DNA of 64,000 nucleotides from Spiroplasma endosymbiont of Aspidapion aeneum (lineage in GTDB: Bacteria > Bacillota_I > Bacilli_A > Mycoplasmatales > Mycoplasmataceae). Below the pieces are notes generated by a model. It had not been told where the DNA came from. It saw only the letters and a list, made by a program, of their open reading frames with translations, and did no database searches. The translations under genes and the position numbers were made by a program. Shown here piece after piece: positions 19,204 to 42,270 of the stretch; within the stretch, counting starts at the first letter, position 1, and each line of letters starts with the position of its first letter. The DNA lies in assembly GCF_964031045.1 (NCBI RefSeq), contig NZ_OZ034994.1, positions 310,001 to 374,000 of the forward strand. The letters run 5' to 3'.

Positions 19204-20169
19204 ATGAAGGAGAGGATGACAACTAAACCATATAAGCATCATTCATTTTGTAAAATATATATAAAAGAATTTAAAAGAACTGCGATTGTTAAAAAAATGT
19301 GTGATGCATTGGGAGTATCTGTAAGTAAATATTATGCATTCAAAAAACGTTTTAATTTGTTAAAAAAATCAGAATTCAAATACTGAAATTATCCACCTTT
19401 CATCCCTGAATATATATCAAAAGTTAATCCTAATGCAGAGGATATGATTACTAAATTTTATACAACATTTAATCCTCCTGAAAGCGCTTTTACAATAAAT
19501 AAGTGAATAAACACTACATATAATGTTAATGTTAGTCAGAAAATCATTCGAGAATACCAATTAAAGTATCCTCTAAAATTTCCTGTAGCTGTTCGTTGAA
19601 CTAAGAGAAGTAAGGCAGCGCGAATTAAACAAAACATTAGAAATGACTTAATTGGAAATGATACATATACAACATGTCCAGGACAAAAAATTGGTATTGA
19701 TGGAACTTGATTTAAGGATCTATTTATAAATGGAAAAAAAACTAAGTTATTATGTGAAATTGCTTATGATTGATTTACTTGAAAAATTGTGTCATATTCA
19801 ATCGGTGAAAGTGAAAATACACAAACTGTTGTTTCAACATTATATGGTATATCTAAATATCTGTCAAAAAATGACTTCACAAATTGTATAGTTCAAATGG
19901 ATAGAGGTTCAGCCAATCTTTCCTATGAAGTTCTAAATTATGAAAATCATCAACACAATTTTATAATATCAATGTCTAATTCTGGTTTTAAGCACAATTC
20001 ATCAACAGAGGCATTAAATGGTTGAATTAAAGAACAATTCTATTTATCAGTTGGAAATCACTTTAATTCACTTTCAGATTTTTACAAAGCATTCAAAACA
20101 TTTATTAAAAACAAAAATTTATTACAAACTTATATTTACAAACAAAAAAGAGGTGAGATATTTATTTAA
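19204..20169 (+). CDS. IS3-type transposase orfB, copy A1
   Basis: 321 aa with code 4. DDE integrase core: first Asp in KIGIDGTWF, second in VQMDRGSAN, Glu in SSTEALNGWI, with spacing typical of the rve domain. An HTH-like N-terminal part (VKKMCDALGVSVSKYYAFKK) precedes it. The frame is open from 19204, but normal expression needs orfA and frameshifting, and orfA is broken here. There is also an in-frame TAA just before ATG 19204. Confidence 0.85.
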
Positions 20170-32832: not shown

Positions 32833-34279
32833 ACTCTAAGTAGACCAGTTAATCTAATAACTATTCTACTTTCTTTCTAAATTATAATTTATTTCCTTTA
32901 TTCAATTTCAATTTTTAACAAATTTTTGGAAACAATTGTAAAAATGTTTCATATCTCTAAATATTCTACCGAATGATTTAAAAAACTTTTGTTTAATCCA
33001 ACCATTTAAGCTCTCTGTCGGAGAGTTGTGTTTAAAACCACTATTAGACATTGAGTGGAATATATTTTTTGAACTATCAACATAATCATAAATAGATTTA
33101 TTTGCAAACGCAGTTCCACGATCTATTTGAATAATTATTTTTTTATTTTCATTCTTAGCATAATTATTAATTTTTTTTATAACTTTTAAAACATTAGCAA
33201 AATTTTCTGTTGGCTGAAACGAACATGAAATAATATTCTTTTTAGCTCAACCATATGAAATTATCGCACATGTTTTTGTTATATTCTTTTTACCTTTTAA
33301 ATAGAATCTAAAATATGTACCATTAATCCCAATAACAATTGGGGTTTTATAGGTATTCTTGACACGGTCATCCCTAACATATTTATTGTGATTTGATGAA
33401 AAATAATTTTGTTTTTTTTGGTCTAGATACTGTTTTAAAAATATTTGGATTTTCTTTAGCAACTCTTCTTACCATTTTAATTGATACATTTTCACCTTTT
33501 TTGAGTAATATTTGGCTATGAATATCTTGAGCGCTGGTTACAATCCCCTTGTTTATTGCCTTAAATTCAAAAATATAATCTAGAGCTTTTGAATAACTAA
33601 TACTAACATAATTTGGTATAGAAGGAATATCCAAACATTTTTTATAGATTTCAATTGGGGATTTAAGATTTCATTTTACCTTAAATTTTTTATATGTGTT
33701 TTTTGTGATGGTAAAATATTTAATCAATTTATTTGTACCAATGCCGTACATTGCCTCAAAAATATAAATTTGAGAACTAGCATAATGTTTATATATTTTG
33801 GTTTTAAACTTCTAATTTGTCCTTCTTACTCATCCTCATCAAATTGATCATCATTGTTGCCGTGCAAGAAGGAATGGACTTTTTAAAACTTAAATTTCTC
33901 CTTTCATAAGTAATTTATCAATCAAATCATTTTCATGTTGTTTTTGCAATAATGCATTTTTTTCTTAAGTTCTTTGTTTTCTTTTATATTTGCCTTCAAT
34001 TCAGCTGCCATATATTCTTTTCTATTTTTTTTGCCATCTCATTCATTCCTTTACACTTATCAATACTTTTAGAATAACAAAATTTTTCATTTTTTTCTCA
34101 AATATATATTAATTGTGGACCAGAAACGATATTTAGTTCATTGGCTATTTTTCTAACATTTTCTCCTTTTTTAAATCTTTATAATGCTGTTTTTTACATT
34201 TTCACTATATCTCTTACCCATTCTAGTTCTCCTCTAATTCAAGAAAAGTTATTTTTTAAATTATTGGTCTACTTAGAGT
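32833..34279 (-). mobile_element. IS3-type element B1 (decayed)
   Basis: About 1.45 kb with terminal inverted repeats ACTCTAAGTAGACCARTAAT-like (left at 32833, right ending 34279). It encodes a distinct but related transposase to the elements at 34674 and 38793. Its right end abuts a fragment of another transposase gene, so it inserted into an older IS. No target duplication was found. Confidence 0.8.
32867..34221 (-). pseudogene. Transposase of element B1, several defects
   Basis: orfA begins at ATG 34221 (MGKRYSENVK) but meets a frameshift within about 17 codons. orfB has the DDE core: IIQIDRGTAFAN (second Asp) and SPTESLNGWIK (Glu). A frameshift near 33420 splits it, and the first catalytic Asp is replaced by Asn (IGINGT versus VGVDGT in the sister element). 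The element cannot move by itself. Confidence 0.8.
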
Positions 34280-34673
34280 CACTCATTCTGACAAATAATT
34301 TGTAATAAAGAGAACAAATATCAATTTTTCGACCTTGTAAATTATATAGAAAAACATAAGGATAAATTACTAAATGATCTTGATTATAGTAAGAAAAAAG
34401 AATTTATGTCATTTTATGCATATCTCAAAAATAACTTAGAAGGAATAAAAAATTATTATAAAGATTTTCAATCATCATCTTGTACAGAGCGACAAATTTC
34501 ATTTTTTATTAAATCTGCTCTCGGCTTTGGAAAAAAATCATTTTGTTATACTAATTTTTCAAATCTATTGAAAATAAGAGAATTAGTTTTTAATTGAGAT
34601 TTAATTCTTTCATTATTTCCTTTGAAAAGGAAGAAAGCGCATATGACTTATTGCAAAAATTACTGAAAATTAA
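34280..34673 (+). pseudogene. UPF0236/ISLre2-like transposase fragment
   Basis: Open frame of about 130 codons with TGA as Trp, without start or end, between the right end of IS B1 and the IS copy at 34674. The order SSSCTERQISFFIKSALG, then KKSFCYTNFSNLLKIREL, resembles the C-terminal part of ISLre2/UPF0236 transposases (Cys-x-Glu, then Ser and Arg positions, then a LRxL-type helix). Family call is tentative. Confidence 0.5.
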
Positions 34674-34743
34674 AGGAAAATAAGGCTTTTTGCATCAGTG
34701 TAATTGATATTTCAATTGAATTATAACATTTAAACATACAAAT

Positions 34744-35367
34744 GTGTCCGTAAAATTAATTAGAGAAATTTTACAAGACGAGCCAAACTTGTTTAAAACA
34801 GCAATCAGAAAAAAAAGACGCATACGCTTATCTAAAAAACATAATCAATATGTTAAGGATGATTTTATCCATATGAATTATAAAACTCCAAATGTTGTTG
34901 GAGTTGATGGCACAAATATCAAAATATTTCTTGAATATAAACATTGCTACAAAAAATTTAATTGTTTAATTTCATATATTTGAGAAAATAAAAAGGTCCT
35001 ATCATAATATTTTGATAAAAGTGAAAATTCTGAAAGTGTAATGAAAGTTTTTAAGCAAATATCTTTTTTTGATAAAAAAAATAAAAGAAAATTAATTATC
35101 CAATCAGATCGTGGAACTGCATTTGCAAATCTAAAAGTTTATGAATTAATGAAAAATGATCATCAAATAATCCACTCAATGTCAAATAGTGGTTTTAAAC
35201 ACAATTCCCCAACCGAAAGTTTACATGGTTGGATTAAGCAAATATTTATAAGAACATTTGGCGATAGGTCTAAGGACCAATTAGATTTCTTAAATTATTT
35301 TAAATTATTTATAAATAAGTGAAATTATTTCAAAGATATCAATTATAATATTAATAGAAATAAGTAA
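34744..35367 (+). pseudogene. Transposase orfB fragment, copy B2
   Basis: C-terminal about 208 codons of an IS3-type orfB. DDE core present: VVGVDGTNIKIF, IIQSDRGTAFAN and SPTESLHGWIK. TAA at 35005-35007 replaces a Tyr codon found in the sister copy (LSYYFD). The N-terminal third and orfA are absent. Confidence 0.85.
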
Positions 35368-35369
35368 AA

Positions 35370-35409
35370 AAACTAAGTGAAAAACAGTGCACTTAGCTCC
35401 CTTTATGCT
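35370..35409. terminator. IS-end hairpin
   Basis: CTAAGTG-AAAAACAGTG-CACTTAG within the IS terminus, with an A-run before it, so it can end minus-strand transcription leaving the mcc side. The same hairpin is at 38807 in the sister copy. Confidence 0.55.
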
Positions 35410-35487
35410 CAATCATAATGAAAATAAAATATTTATTTTACAGCTGGTGACATAGGTTCATATTTGCTTAGAAAGGAGGTGGATACA

Positions 35488-35520
35488 ATGGATATAATTA
35501 TTGGACAAATGTCAAATTAA
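35488..35520 (+). CDS. mccA: Candidate microcin C-type precursor peptide
   Basis: Ten codons reading MDIIIGQMSN followed by TAA. Known MccA peptides are very short (for example heptapeptides) and must end in Asn, to which MccB attaches the nucleotide. This one ends in Asn. It has one of the strongest ribosome sites in the window (AAGGAGGTGG at 35473-35482) and is followed by a hairpin, then mccB. A TTTACA (35437) and ATATTT (35460) at 17-nt spacing could be a weak promoter. The assignment rests on context and the Asn end; a short frame alone would not justify it. Confidence 0.75.
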   Translation: MDIIIGQMSN

Positions 35521-35526
35521 TTTAAT

Positions 35527-35559
35527 AAAATAAAGATTTAATCTTTATTTTATTTTTTT
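35527..35559 (+). terminator. Hairpin between mccA and mccB
   Basis: AAAATAAAGAT-TTA-ATCTTTATTTT, perfect 11-bp stem, then ATTTTTTT. It sits between the peptide gene and mccB. In the E. coli mcc operon a similar hairpin lets most transcripts stop after mccA so that the peptide is in excess over the enzyme. Confidence 0.8.
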
Positions 35560-35567
35560 GGGGATTT

Positions 35568-36667
35568 ATGAATGAAAAAAAATACTGTCTAGCAAAGACG
35601 TTTACTATTTATAAATTAAAAAATATTGTTATTTTGAATAAAGGCACTAATCAAAAAATTATTAGCCTTGATAGTTGAAATAAAAACAAAAAAATTTTTG
35701 AATGAATTTTTAATAGTAAATCTATTTCACTTGGCGAAATAGATTTAATGTGTGAAAAAATGTTAATTGATATTGAGATTAAAAATTACATAAATACCAA
35801 AGCTGTTTTAATAGACTCAGTTATGATGAAAATTCAAGTTTAAGTAGAAGCGATTTATACTTAAACTATTTTGCGGGCAATGGAAACTACAAAGATATTA
35901 AGAATAAAATCGCAGAATTTAATTATATTATTATTGGAGCTGGGGGGATAGGAAATGCAATATCTTATTGTTTATCATCAATAGGTGCAAAAAATATAAT
36001 GATAATAGATAAAGATATTGTTGAAAAAAGCAATTTGAATAGACAATTTCTTTTTACAAAAAACGATATTGGAAAATATAAAACAGAGGTTTTAAGGGAT
36101 TCACTAAAAAATAGGTTTGATAACTTAAATATTACTGATTTAAATTTAGATATTTCAATAAAATTTGAATACAAAAAATTTATAGAGATATTAGAGAAAA
36201 AATCATTTTTTAAGTCATTGGTTATTTTGTCTGCCGATGAATTAGATATAATAAAATTAACAAATTTAATTTGTGTTAAGAATAGTATCCCGTTAATAAA
36301 TTTGGGTTATTTTAATAATGTTTCTGCAGTTGGTCCATTTTATATTCCAAGCATTGTAAACAGTTCATGTCTTTTTTGTGATAATGAAAAAGTTGAATTA
36401 AATTTAAATAATATTGACGAAGTTATTTTAGATATCAATAATTATTCAAAAATGGTTCCATCTTGATATGTTAATAATTCAATAGCTGTTTCAATAGCGG
36501 CGGAGGAAATAATAAATTTTGTGGATAACAGAATAGATAAAATACAGTCTATTTCAAAGAAGATTGCAGTTTCAAATAATAATTTTGAAAAAGCATTATT
36601 TGATTTTAATAAAAATATAAAATGTAAATTTTGCGGACCTAAATCAAAGGAAACTTATAACATTTAA
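35568..36667 (+). pseudogene. mccB: MccB-type adenylating enzyme (ThiF/E1 family), apparent frameshift
   Basis: Activates the C-terminal Asn of MccA with ATP and joins it to AMP. The product spans two frames: 35568 to TAA 35841-35843, and about 35816 to TAA 36665-36667; one missing base near 35816 would join them. The C-terminal part fits E. coli MccB closely: IIIGAGGIGNAIS (ATP loop), a NLNRQFLFTKNDIGK stretch matching NLTRQVLFSEDDVGK, YFNNVSAVGPFYIP, and the zinc pairs CLFC and CKFC. The N-terminal about 80 residues match the peptide-clamp domain position. GGGGA precedes ATG 35568. A true pseudogene, a sequencing error or programmed slippage are all possible; no slippery site was seen. Confidence 0.85.
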
Positions 36668-37792
36668 TAAGTGTATTTATTTTGTTTTTGGTTCTATAAG
36701 TACCTATAAAAGATAATAAAGCAAGACATCAATTATTATTATAATTAAATAAATTATGTAAAAACTAGAAAATAATGTTGGAATAATTATTGAGGTAAGA
36801 TTATAATGATTATCTCTTTTCTGTTTTAACAAAAGAAATTAATGATTCAGATCAAAAAATTTATAATATTTTTTATCAATGTTTCGATGAATTAGTCCAA
36901 GAATAATCAAGTCGAAACATAAAATAATCAATCTGCACCTATGCTTATATTCCACTTTTAGCACCACTGGTGGATAATATAACAGATTTTGTACTTTTTT
37001 ATTATCAAAGTAACAATTCATTAAATTTTTTACTTTTAATTTTGATGTTGATACAAGTAATCTGAATAATTCTGTAAAATTTTTAACCACAGTACCACCG
37101 GGAAAAGTATCAATAAATAATTTACTATCACCAATAAACGATGATGACAATGATATATCGTTCGTATTAGGATTAACTTTTGATATATAAGGTAAATAAT
37201 ATTGTTAAGTTGGATAATTAGATCTAAATACACAAGAAATAGCAATGTTAATGCTATTTTTTTTGTCTAATTATAGTAGAAACAAAGAAAAATAAAAAAT
37301 AAAGATGTATTTAGGTTATGGTGTATATAATCTTTTATGTATACAATAATAAAAAAAGCAATTGTAAAAAATTTGCTTAATTTTGAGATAAAATTATTGT
37401 ATATTTGGGAGATTTTTATTATGGAAAATTTAAAAGAAACAAACAAAATATTCTAAAAAATGAGTAAAAATTAGAAATTATAAAACCTTCTACAACGAAT
37501 TTCCTTGTATTTTTTACTTTTTTTAACAAAAAATAAATTAACATGTTATTATATTAATATGAAAGTATTAATTTGTTAATATAGATTTATTTTGAATTTT
37601 TTTATCCAAAAGATAAAAACCCCATATATTATATTTAATTCAATTTTAAAGCAAAATAAGGTGGGTATAAATGTCGTAATAAAGTTTCGAAAGATAATTT
37701 AATATTAATTAATAGGATAAATAAAATTTTTAACTTTAGAGTTATACATATTTTTACAAATTAATAAAATATTTATTTTTAAGGAGTCAATT
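36668..37792. other. 1.1 kb without intact gene between mccB and mccF
   Basis: Stops in all frames. Around 37020-37190 the plus strand reads FTFNFDVDTSNLNNS then FLTTVPPGKVSINNLL in one open stretch to TAA, looking like the remnant of a beta-rich protein. I find no trace of an exporter or acetyltransferase gene. AAGGAG at 37781-37786 belongs to mccF. Confidence 0.55.
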
Positions 37793-38761
37793 ATGAAAAT
37801 AGGAATTTTTTCGTGTAGTAGTCCTGGCGGAAGTAATTTTCCAATTAGATTGAATAGAGCTTTAAAAAAGCTTGAAAATTATGGAAATGAAATAATTTGT
37901 GGAAAATTGATCAGAGGTAATAATTATTATAGAACTGCTACAATAAATGACCGAGCTGATGAGTTTAACTCATTAATAAGTAGTAATGTTGATATTTTGA
38001 TGTCCTCTATTGGGGGCTCAAATTCAAACTCAATTGTTGATAAAATAAATTACAATATGTTAAATAAAATTAATAAAAAACTAATAGTATGTGGTTATTC
38101 AGATACAACAGTTATTTTACTAGCTATTCTAAGAAAATGTAAAAAGATTAGAGTTTTATATGGACCTGCTTTAATTTCAACGTTTGGAGATTGAGAAGAA
38201 GAGTTTGTAGACTATACATATAAGGATTTTGTTAGTGTAATTGAGAAGAAAAGCGAGGTAATAGTCCCCCCTAAACATTGAACAGATGATATAAAAAATT
38301 GAAGCAAATATGAGGGTATTAGGAATATAAAAATAAATGATTGAAAATTTCTTGGATTTACTAAAAATATTAAAGGAAGAGTTATTGGTGGAAATTTGTC
38401 TGCCCTAATCGGTACATATGGTTCAGAGTATGGACTTAATGTAAAAAAGGGGGACATATTATTAATCGAAGATTCATGCAAAAATGCAGAAATTATAGAA
38501 AAAAACTTTTCGTTTTTGCTATTAAATAAAATATTTAATAAGTGTTCAGCGATTTTACTAGGAAAACATGAAAGATTTGATGACCAGGGTTCTAAAATAA
38601 ATTCGATTGATATTTTAAATGAGGTTTTAAAATCAAGAAATATGTGTATACCTATAGTTTATGATGTTGATTTTGCCCATACAAAACCAATGTCAATTAT
38701 TGAATTGAATTCTACAATTGAAATAGATTTTATAAATAAAAAAATCAAAAAAATATATTAG
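37793..38761 (+). CDS. mccF: Microcin C immunity serine peptidase (S66 family)
   Basis: 322 aa with code 4 (TGA at 38192 and several later). S66 peptidases include LD-carboxypeptidases and MccF, which cuts the bond between the aspartate and the nucleotide of microcin C and so gives immunity. The catalytic triad is visible: Ser103 in CGYSDTT, Glu226 in LLIEDSC and His296 in VDFAHTKP. GGNLSALIGT is the conserved substrate loop. AAGGAG precedes ATG 37793. Mollicutes have no peptidoglycan, so a murein LD-carboxypeptidase role makes no sense, which favours MccF. The gene is intact. Confidence 0.88.
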
Positions 38762-38806
38762 GTTATTTAGAAGAAACGACCTGGACTGCACCAGTATAAA
38801 GGAAGC

Positions 38807-38838
38807 TAAGTGTACTGTTTTACACCTAGTTTTTTTAC
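38807..38838 (+). terminator. Terminator at IS end, after mccF
   Basis: CTAAGTGTA-CTGTT-TTACACCTAG followed by seven T, 46 nt after the mccF stop and inside the left end of the IS. Confidence 0.65.
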
Positions 38839-40196
38839 TTATTTCTATTAATATTATAATTGATATCTTTAAAATAATTTCATTTATTTATAAATAATTT
38901 AAAGCAATTTAAGAAATCTAATTGGTCCTTAAACCTATCACCAAATGTTCTTATGAATTTTTGCTTAATTCAACCATTTAATGCCTCTGTTGATAAATTG
39001 TGTTTAAAACCACTATTTGACATTAAGTGGATTATTTGATGATCATTTTTCATTAATTCATAAACTTTTAGATTTTCGAATGCAGTCCACAATCTGATTG
39101 GATAATTAATTTTCTTTTATTTTTCTTTGCAAAAAAAGATATTTCCTTAAAAACTTTCATTACAGTTCCAGAATTTTTATTTTTATCAAAATAGTATGAT
39201 AGAACTTTCTTATTTTCTCAAATATATGAAATTAAGCAATTAAATTTTTTGTAACAATGTTTATCTTCAAGAAATATTTTCATGTTTGTTCCATCAACTC
39301 CAACAACATTTGGAGTTTTGTAATTCATATGGATAAAATCATCTTTAACATATTGATTATGTTTTTTTGATAAGCTTATACGTCTTTTTTTCTGATTGTT
39401 GTTTTAAACAAGTTTGGCTCATCTTGTAAAATTTTCCTAATTAATTTTACAGAAGCCTTTGCATGCTTAAAGGTTATGATCCAGTTGTAAATATCAATTA
39501 CACTGATGCAAAAAGCCTTATTTTCCTCTGCAAATGAATAAATATATTTTTTAGCTTGTAAATATTTCTTACTAATATAATTTGGTAACTCAGGTGTAGG
39601 TAATTTATCCTTAAATAAGATCAATGGAGACTTTAGCCTATTTTTAAATTTAAACTTATAATATGTTGTTCAACTAATTTTAAAATATTTTATGAGCACA
39701 TTAGTTGCTAGGTTGAATCTTGCAACTAACAAATATATTTGCGAACATACATAATGTTTATAAGCTTTTGTTTTTTCGATGATTAGTTTATCCTTCTTAC
39801 TCATCCTTATCAAATTCATCATTATCATCGCTGTGCAAGAAGGAATACACTTTTCCAATACTTCGTATTTTGCCTTTAATAGAATATTTTCTATTCTATC
39901 TTTATCTGTTTGTTTTTTTCGATTTTCAATTTCTTTTTGTAATTCTTTTATTTCTCTTTTTTTGATTTTTAATTCTTCACGCTCACAAATTGTTTTTACT
40001 TTTTTATCCATAAGTTTGCACTCCTTGTGCCTATTAATACCATTAGAATAACAAAATTTCTTTTTTTTGCTCACATATATACCAATTGTGTACCAGAATT
40101 TAAATTTAATTCTTTAGCAATTAGTTTTGCGCTTTCACCATTTTTAAATCTCTCAATTGCTAATTTTTTTTGTGTTTTGTCATAGTGTTTTTTCAT
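38835..40196 (-). pseudogene. Transposase of element B3, frameshifted
   Basis: orfA starts at ATG 40196 (MKKHYDKTQKKLAIERFKNG, HTH type) and loses frame in an A-run near 40060. The frame then runs through a Lys/Glu coiled coil into orfB without a stop. DDE parts are VVGVDGTNMKIF and IIQSDCGLH, where one base is missing near 39085 relative to the sister copy (IIQSDRGTA). Catalytically dead. Confidence 0.8.
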
Positions 40197-40881: not shown

Positions 40882-42270
40882 GCAAAGGTAACCCTAAGGG
40901 GAGGAAATAATATTTACTCTCACTAGTAGAAAGGTTACTTTTTTTATGAAAAAATATAGTTACAAAACAAAATATCATGCAATATTAGACTATTCAAATG
41001 GAATGAAAATTTGTGAAATAGTTAAAAAATACAACATATCTTCTGGTGCACCGCTTATTTCATATTGGATTATTAGGTATAATAATATTGAAGAATTAAA
41101 ATTATCTTCAATGAAAGAAGAAGAATATATGGCAAAAATTGAATCTGAAGAAATATTAAACAAGAAAAAAATGAAAAAACTGGAGCAAGAAAATAAAGAA
41201 TTAAAATGGGAAAATGAAAAACTTAAGATGCAAAACAATGTGCTAAAAAAGTTCGATCCTTCATGACAGGTGCGTGACATGAAGGAGAAGATGACGACTA
41301 AACCATATAAGCATCATTCATTTTGTGAAATATATATAAAGGAATTTAAAAAGGTTGCAACTGTTAAAAAAATGTGTGATGCATTGGGAGTATCTGTAAG
41401 TAAATATTATGCATTCAAAAAACGTTTTAATTTGTTAAAAAAATCAGAATTCAAATACTGAAATTATCCACATTTCATCCCTAAATATATATCAAAAGCT
41501 AATCCTAATACAGAAGATATGATTACTAAATTTTATACAGCATTTAATGATCCTGGGAGTGCTTTTACAGTAAATAAGTGAATAAACACTACATATAATG
41601 TTAATGTTAGTCGGAAAATCATTCGAGATTACCAATTAAAGTATCCTTTAAAATATCCTGTGGCTGTTCGTTGAACTAAGAGAAGTAAGGCAGTGCGAAT
41701 TAAACAAAACATTAGAAATGATTTAATTGGAAATGATACATATACAACATGTCCAGGACAAAAAATTGGTATTGATGGAACTTGATTTAAAGATCTATTT
41801 ATAAACGGAAAAAGAACTAAGTTATTATGTGAAATTGCTTATGATTGATTTACTAGAAAGGTTGTTTCATATTCAATCGTCAAGGTGAAAACAAACAAAC
41901 TGTTGTTTCAACATTATATGGTATATCTAAATATCTGTCAAAAAATGACTTCACAAATTGTATAGTTCAAATGGATAGAGGTTCAGCCAATCTTTCCTAT
42001 GAAGTTCTAAATTATGAAAATCATCAGCACAATTTTATAATATCAATGTCTAATTCTGGTTTTAAGCACAATTCATCAACAGAGGCATTAAATGGTTGAA
42101 TTAAAGAACAATTCTATTTATCAGTTGGAAATCACTTTAATTCACTTTCAGATTTTTACAAAGCATTCAAAACATTTATTAAAAACAAAAATTTATTACA
42201 AACTTATATTTACAAACAAAAAAGAGGTGAGATATTTATTTAACTTCTCTCCCCTTAGGGTTAACCATGC
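40882..42270 (+). mobile_element. IS3-type insertion sequence, copy A2
   Basis: Nearly identical to the element at 18809-20194. Terminal repeats GCAAAGGTAACCCTAAGGGG and, on the other end, GCATGGTTAACCCTAAGGGG (reverse complement). A 3-bp target duplication TAA is present at 40879-40881 and 42271-42273, so this is a clean insertion. Confidence 0.88.
40946..42243 (+). pseudogene. IS copy A2 transposase, orfA-orfB fused in frame, later frameshift
   Basis: orfA (HTH and coiled coil, about 107 aa) continues in frame into orfB because this copy has one extra base at the junction (CAGGTGCGTGAC versus CAGATACATAA in copy A1). orfB keeps KIGIDGTWF, but a one-base deletion near 41880 (ATCGTC versus ATCGGTG) puts the rest, including MDRGSAN and STEALNGW, out of frame. 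So each copy of this IS has a different defect. Confidence 0.85.

Follow-up and report, generated by a model that had tools for sequence, protein, structure and literature searches.

The window, a 64,000-nucleotide stretch of the chromosome of the Spiroplasma endosymbiont of Aspidapion aeneum (contig NZ_OZ034994.1 of 1,209,723 bases, forward strand, positions 310,001–374,000), harbors a peptide mini-gene (mccA), a broken gene for an MccB-type enzyme (mccB) and an intact gene for an MccF-type peptidase (mccF), which very probably constitute a microcin C-type locus that has lost production and kept immunity. The genes of the window read through TGA as Trp, and genetic code 4 therefore applies; code and gene content point to a Mollicute. 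In window coordinates, the locus comprises the following features:

35472–35479, + strand: Shine-Dalgarno sequence AAAGGAGG of mccA, read from the sequence and picked by the mini-ORF rule given below
35488–35520, + strand: mccA, encoding MDIIIGQMSN followed by TAA, with Asn-ended counterparts at 6/6 intact mccB-like frames of the order
35524–35554, + strand: terminator-like hairpin of 14 bp with a T run behind it, in the mccA–mccB interval (RNA fold)
35568–35843, + strand: mccB piece 1 (N-terminal domain), in a different frame from the remainder (alignment with the MccB of the related genome G152)
35849–36667, + strand: mccB piece 2 (ThiF/E1 domain with ATP loop at 35936–35956 and two CxxC pairs; PDB, Pfam and alignment with G152)
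36668–37792, no strand: gap of ~1.1 kb between mccB and mccF in which six-frame reading reveals no long open frame, perhaps decayed
37793–38761, + strand: mccF, an intact S66 peptidase of the MccF type (PDB match, catalytic residues and MccF tree)

The mini-gene mccA runs from ATG to TAA over 10 codons, with its Shine-Dalgarno sequence, a strong ribosome-binding site, located 8 nt 5′ of the ATG, and it is the single Shine-Dalgarno-led ATG mini open reading frame (mini-ORF; 5–15 codons) within the 300 nt upstream of mccB. The hairpin that follows has a predicted energy of −9.9 kcal/mol (z −4.56, with 1 of 200 shuffles equally good). Hairpins between mccA and mccB are also observed in G152 (z −4.44) and G207 (z −2.65), which together with the window make up the three Mollicute loci with separate genes, while E. 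coli (z −2.64) and Helicobacter pylori (z −1.77) serve as yardsticks. A promoter scan at the locus returned background level only.

A broken mccB beside an intact mccF

The mccB gene of the window is read in two frames, the first encoding 91 residues (35568–35843) and the second ending at 36667 (272 residues from 35849), with the switch located near position 35,820. Thus, no full-length MccB can be read from it, whereas a full-length frame is present in G152, in G207 and in the four fusions described below. Piece 1 shares 45% identity over 80 residues with the intact MccB of G152 and has no Pfam match, and piece 2 shares 46% identity over 258 residues with the same protein. No ATG, GTG or TTG precedes position 35999 in piece 2, and the ATP loop (GAGGIGN) lies upstream of this first start codon, such that piece 2 should not be an active enzyme by itself. 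With mccB broken in this manner, the window copy, as read, cannot work as an antibiotic locus, and the expected activity is that of MccF alone, now an immunity enzyme without its partner. We consider it unlikely that the locus still produces, with the frame change representing a sequencing error or being bridged by ribosomal frameshifting: although both mccB pieces are equally identical to G152 and mccA is intact together with its signals, only four-base runs, and no longer homopolymer, are found near ~35,820, the frames of the neighboring insertion sequence (IS)-like elements are broken, the 1.1 kb before mccF lacks a long frame, and mccB is broken in the relatives G307 and G308 too.

Among PDB entries, piece 2 matches E. 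coli MccB best (2.2e-31), followed by E1/Ube1 (1.3e-18) and E. coli ThiF (1.1e-9), and it shares with E. coli MccB the stretch G-Y-x-N-[DN]-x4-G-P; the two CxxC pairs are CLFC and CKFC. In a tree of 16 of 21 rows, from which five long-branch rows were left out, the window sequence pairs with G152 (support 96/94) within a ten-row MccB group (87/93). In a larger tree, to which G514, G369 and L145 were added, it shares a group of seven rows (99/97) with G152, G207, G514, L145, H. pylori and Borreliella garinii. The place of the window sequence beside H. pylori MccB is firm, whereas E. coli MccB and the fusions do not receive a firm exact position. The earlier note on this stretch had set beforehand a grouping with MoeB or ThiF as the refutation of its assignment; the window sequence groups with MccB, and constraining it to join MoeB/ThiF, a candidate identity that we thereby reject, costs 61 log units (p-AU 3.2e-14).

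Enzymes of the ThiF type also make thiolactones, bicycles and indolylamides, according to PMC12150305, and the window enzyme might likewise perform a different peptide modification (macrocycle, pantocin-like or IndF-like) rather than peptide-nucleotide synthesis. Such a ThiF-type enzyme is indeed present elsewhere in the window's genome, and the larger tree does not separate E. coli MccB from other ThiF-type enzymes of ribosomally synthesized and post-translationally modified peptide (RiPP) pathways. Nevertheless, this alternative appears improbable to us: the stretch shared with E. coli MccB and an Asn-ended peptide are both present, the enzyme is partnered by MccF, which is known to act on a peptide-nucleotide, the window sequence groups with H. 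pylori MccB with the support given above, and the candidate peptides checked for other ThiF classes, which are open reading frames (ORFs) and not proven precursors, have Ile, Val, Cys, Gly or Arg as their last residue.

Read with code 4, mccF is a single uninterrupted frame that encodes 322 residues and contains 4 TGA codons read as Trp. The best PDB match of its product is E. coli MccF at 8.5e-67, compared with ~1e-20 for Lmo1638 and other S66 proteins and 1.5e-10 for murein tetrapeptide carboxypeptidase. In the alignment, the counterparts of the catalytic residues Ser118, Glu243 and His311 of E. coli MccF are conserved, as is that of Trp186 on the nucleotide side. The MccF tree assigns the window protein to a clade (99/98) made up of 11 rows of the same family and sets it well apart from E. 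coli LdcA, which is the sole LdcA included; on the PDB scores together with this tree, we reject an LdcA identity. S66 proteins are matched in 56/320 genomes of the order, a frequency that would suit a housekeeping LD-carboxypeptidase positioned next to mccB by coincidence. Against this reading, which we regard as highly improbable, stand the PDB scores, the position in the tree, the absence of a murein substrate for an LD-carboxypeptidase in a wall-less cell, and the finding that mccF adjoins or is fused to mccB in 6/6 relatives with an intact mccB-like frame. Proteins of the MccF clade are also encoded in ten more genomes without an mccB match (G151, G202, G208, G200, G206, G199, G198, G197, G146 and G141); mccB remnants beside these ten orphan genes were sought, and the best E value, 0.27, is at chance level.

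The ten-codon peptide gene ending in Asn, the MccB-type adenylating enzyme with the MccB motifs and CxxC zinc pairs quoted for it, and the intact MccF-type serine peptidase are thus all present as the earlier note had described them. Its designation of the whole as a microcin C-like antibiotic locus holds for family membership, as judged by peptide, MccB and MccF, and does not hold for a working locus, mccB being broken.

Asn-ended peptides at related loci

At genus level the search covered only the window's own genome, and the MccB profile was run against 320 genomes of the order, of which 12 match at E ≤1e-5 and eight at E ≤1e-35 (the window's genome, G152, G207, G143, G149, G212, G231 and G307). 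Six of these relatives (G152, G207, G143, G149, G212 and G231) carry an intact mccB-like frame, while the profile matches of G162, G179 and G196 represent other ThiF-type proteins. An Asn-ended mini-gene lies directly upstream of mccB in 6/6 relatives with an intact frame, encoding MFVGLMMN in G152, MYGILRN in G207, MPISWFNLTLN in G212, MPIYWLNLILN in G231, MIPSTWAVNVFN in G149 and MPIEWSVINFN in G143. The earlier note had given as its other refutation a lack of conservation of the peptide beside mccB in related genomes: its position and Asn end recur at all six loci, its sequence is not conserved, and neither refuting outcome was thus observed. With a length of 7–12 codons and, in several cases, a Trp encoded by TGA, such peptides may be missed or truncated by standard annotation.

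The upstream peptides were also collected by a rule (ATG, 5–15 codons, Shine-Dalgarno sequence, within 300 nt), which was fixed after the peptides had been read by eye. It yields exactly one candidate each at the window, at 5/6 relatives, at G514, at E. coli and at H. pylori, and 9/9 of these are Asn-ended. As a control, 41 mini-ORFs were found upstream of 222 control ORFs, of which 4/41 (~10%) end in Asn; the counts had been 42 and 223 prior to the removal of one duplicate of the G207 peptide. With the window excluded, six of six Asn-ended loci (five relatives and G514) at ~0.1 each correspond to a probability of ~1e-6, which is a rough figure given the late-set rule.

Within the class, 85 of 395 genomes match the MccB profile at 1e-20, and, besides the window's genome, two stand out, namely G514 (5.4e-93) and G369 (3.2e-50), with the remainder at 3.5e-28 or weaker. 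The G514 locus consists of a mini-gene for MHRIMKN, mccB and an MFS-like gene. The same order of Asn-ended mini-gene (MHVTPSN), mccB and MFS-like gene is seen on two near-identical viral contigs, where a second candidate, located within the mccB frame, is Cys-ended. The candidate peptide of the Lactiplantibacillus plantarum locus ends in Cys, and the mini-ORF scan gave no candidate at the loci of B. miyamotoi and L. gasseri. Carriage of mcc loci by Mollicute phages was considered and rejected, four phage records having matched only weakly.

According to PMC6495379, PMC7157772 and PMC9239234, MccB attaches a nucleotide to a formylated peptide at its C-terminal Asn, target cells take up and trim the product, the resulting Asp-amide nucleotide blocks aspartyl-tRNA synthetase, and MccF cuts the amide. 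By analogy, the mini-gene of the intact relatives would give an Asn-ended peptide of 7–12 residues, MccB would use ATP or another nucleoside triphosphate to link the nucleotide to the terminal Asn, uptake and trimming in the target cell would release an Asp-amide nucleotide that blocks aspartyl-tRNA synthetase, and MccF would protect the cell by cutting the amide bond. The analysis itself shows the gene content, the trees, the recurring Asn, the intact catalytic residues and the broken frame. We infer adenylation, target, cleavage and ecological role here from the family, and the label "antibiotic" is inherited in the same way.

Several observations weigh against the reading as a microcin C-type locus with production lost and immunity preserved. 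First, mccB is broken in the window's genome, and the break in its frame might stem from faulty assembly. The hairpin of the window is composed nearly entirely of A-T pairs and was not listed by a terminator scan, which demands G-C pairs. The larger MccB tree leaves a comb consisting of E. coli MccB, the fusions, a ThiF-type pair of G000 and G162, L. plantarum, Staphylococcus aureus, G369 and the group of the window. The mini-ORF rule gives no candidate at G143, the peptide of which has no recognizable Shine-Dalgarno sequence, and no Asn-ended mini-ORF turned up in the stretches scanned ahead of the mccB pieces in G307 and G308. In addition, G369, the second-best class profile match outside the order, has no Asn-ended candidate with a Shine-Dalgarno sequence upstream and carries a Shine-Dalgarno-led ORF of 21 residues that ends in Cys; should it prove to be a genuine MccB, it would count as a counter-example, and its place is not settled by the MccB tree. 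Lastly, mccC belongs to the known minimal microcin C set, and no MccC-like exporter was recognized beside the seven loci, as read by eye among the window ORFs of at least 150 residues and in the flanks of the relatives, a search that did not extend to whole genomes.

From the flanks of the relatives, nine proteins of six loci were run against Pfam, the contigs of G207 and G212 being only 4.9 and 6.4 kb long, and the flank proteins include a ZIP transporter (G212), an ABC ATPase that is SufC-like by eye (G231) and a 192-residue protein without a family (G207). An exporter remnant was also sought in the mccB–mccF gap of the window, where none was recognizable by eye. At G369 (L132), what appears by eye to be an ABC-type ATPase follows the MccB-profile match.

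MccB-MccF fusions, decay and known systems

In four genomes from two other families of the order, MccB and MccF are encoded in one open frame: G212 (665 residues, L055:4084–6081), G231 (670 residues, L056:6416–8428), G149 (663 residues, L057:6071–8062) and G143 (644 residues, L058:6032–7966, − strand). The MccB halves of the fusions cluster together (99/99) and lack the CxxC pairs, and the MccF halves cluster with the standalone MccF of G146, G141 and G149 (96/90). In G231, the MccB half has GTNEIANN in place of the glycine loop GxGGIGNN and has also lost the RQ pair as well as the GY of GYLND; its MccF half keeps the triad. Production seems to have been lost here a second time, independently, and immunity retained. 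In G307 (L059), which belongs to another family of the order, a gene of 314 codons with Pfam matches of transposase type separates the mccB pieces and no MccF was seen, and G308 (L133) of the same family has a partial mccB piece.

On balance, the chances seem to us about even that wall-less bacteria repeatedly engage in microcin C-type warfare, a trait so far overlooked and with a form of its own, in which a peptide of 11–12 residues ending in Asn is followed immediately by a single MccB-MccF polypeptide that would both make and disarm the peptide-nucleotide. Producers would then decay by a break of the frame (window), by IS insertion (G307) or by loss of the ATP loop (G231), with the window and G231 keeping immunity and orphan MccF genes scattered across the group. 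Our estimate was lowered because the fusions have no settled position in the larger MccB tree. Loci of this kind would extend peptide-nucleotide antibiotics to wall-less, host-associated bacteria and would give S66 "LD-carboxypeptidases" a plausible role in murein-free cells, and the fusions pose the question of how a single protein avoids the futile cycle in which it makes its product only to destroy it.

The overall arrangement of the window locus is similar, but not identical, to that of E. coli microcin C (mccABCDE and mccF, plasmid MccC7-H22), with which it shares the Asn-ended mini-gene, the hairpin between mccA and mccB, an MccB with two CxxC pairs and the same MccF triad. In contrast, the peptide of the window has 10 rather than 7 codons, no mccC, mccD or mccE was recognized nearby, mccB is broken, and the locus is chromosomal, uses code 4 and is bordered on both sides by IS-like copies. 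The nearest named MccB by tree path (2.07 in the 16-row tree, 2.19 in the larger tree) is that of the mccA-mccB-mccC plasmid loci of H. pylori, which encode the 7-residue peptide MKLSYRN and differ in that mccC is present and no mccF lies within the 4.9-kb stretch examined. The ThiF locus of the Borreliella garinii plasmid lp25 (L074:2507–3663), a member of the tree group of the window, has the upstream peptide MLGKNFN, but resides on a spirochaete plasmid and is followed by an MFS gene; its annotated hypothetical protein, which precedes the ThiF protein and has no Pfam match, and the ThiF protein itself may be two pieces of mccB. The fusions resemble E. coli MccE, which, according to PMC6495379 and PMC7157772, combines maturation and immunity domains in one polypeptide, although the enzymes joined are different.

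Titles and opening lines of abstracts in the open-access literature describe neither a microcin C locus in Mollicutes nor an MccB-MccF fusion. The words "mycoplasma", "spiroplasma" and "mollicute" are absent from PMC12250964, PMC6495379 and PMC9239234, as is "mycoplasma" from PMC7157772. PMC2662799 was considered as a prior description and set aside, as it concerns an aphid gene and a different matter.

One aspS gene of the window's genome scores over the cut-off, and a second aspS, which was sought as well, was not found over it. In G143, mccA (L058:8025–8060, − strand) starts 132 bases past the end of aspS (L058:8193–9878, − strand; aspS confirmed at 2.9e-198). The closeness of mccA to aspS, which encodes the enzyme targeted by microcin C, may be due to chance, being seen in one genome. 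Adjoining the G231 locus are two large ORFs (L056:1088–5175) that have the look of an ADP-ribosylating toxin family.

Insertion elements and a second ThiF-type locus

Two IS-like copies in inverted orientation flank the mcc locus:

34674–35409, + strand: left IS-like element copy with broken transposase-like frames, inverted segments of which are 86–100% complementary to 38793–39527
38793–39527, − strand: right IS-like element copy, inverted with respect to the left copy (segment complementarity)

Two long segments of these copies are 91–92% complementary. Neither this arrangement nor the gap between mccB and mccF had been mentioned in the earlier note, and a 35-nt segment of the gap recurs at two other places in the window. 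As suggested by their arrangement, the inverted copies may have moved the locus. Additional IS-like elements are observed at 19204–20169, 32866–33751, 34406–35367, 38793–40074 and 40946–42243, many of them with broken transposase-like frames, and the part of the window around the mcc locus is an insertion hot spot. The transposase likeness of the broken pieces was judged by eye, a Pfam search with them having given no match; among four IS-like pieces tested, 40946–41962 is the sole one with a transposase-type Pfam match.

Elsewhere in the window's genome (G000:C1, ~717.6–718.9 kb; L003:5089–6445, − strand), an intact ThiF-type protein of 373 residues follows a 22-codon gene, MKELVLVEVNESSILDGNWYFI, and ABC transporter genes come after it. 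The same gene pair is present in G162 (L060:4983–6226), with 46% identity and the peptide MKELKLNKIIKTAKEDVVVNWYFV. These precursors end in NWYFI and NWYFV and so match pneumococcal IndA at its C-terminus; PMC12150305, which deals with pneumococcal IndF, gives the IndA core EDTTNWYFI and describes the joining of Trp to the C-terminal Ile. Judged by the peptide C-terminus, this second locus is apparently of the ind (indolylamide) type. The Trp of its peptide is encoded by TGA, such that the standard code would stop at ...DGN and yield a false Asn-ended peptide.

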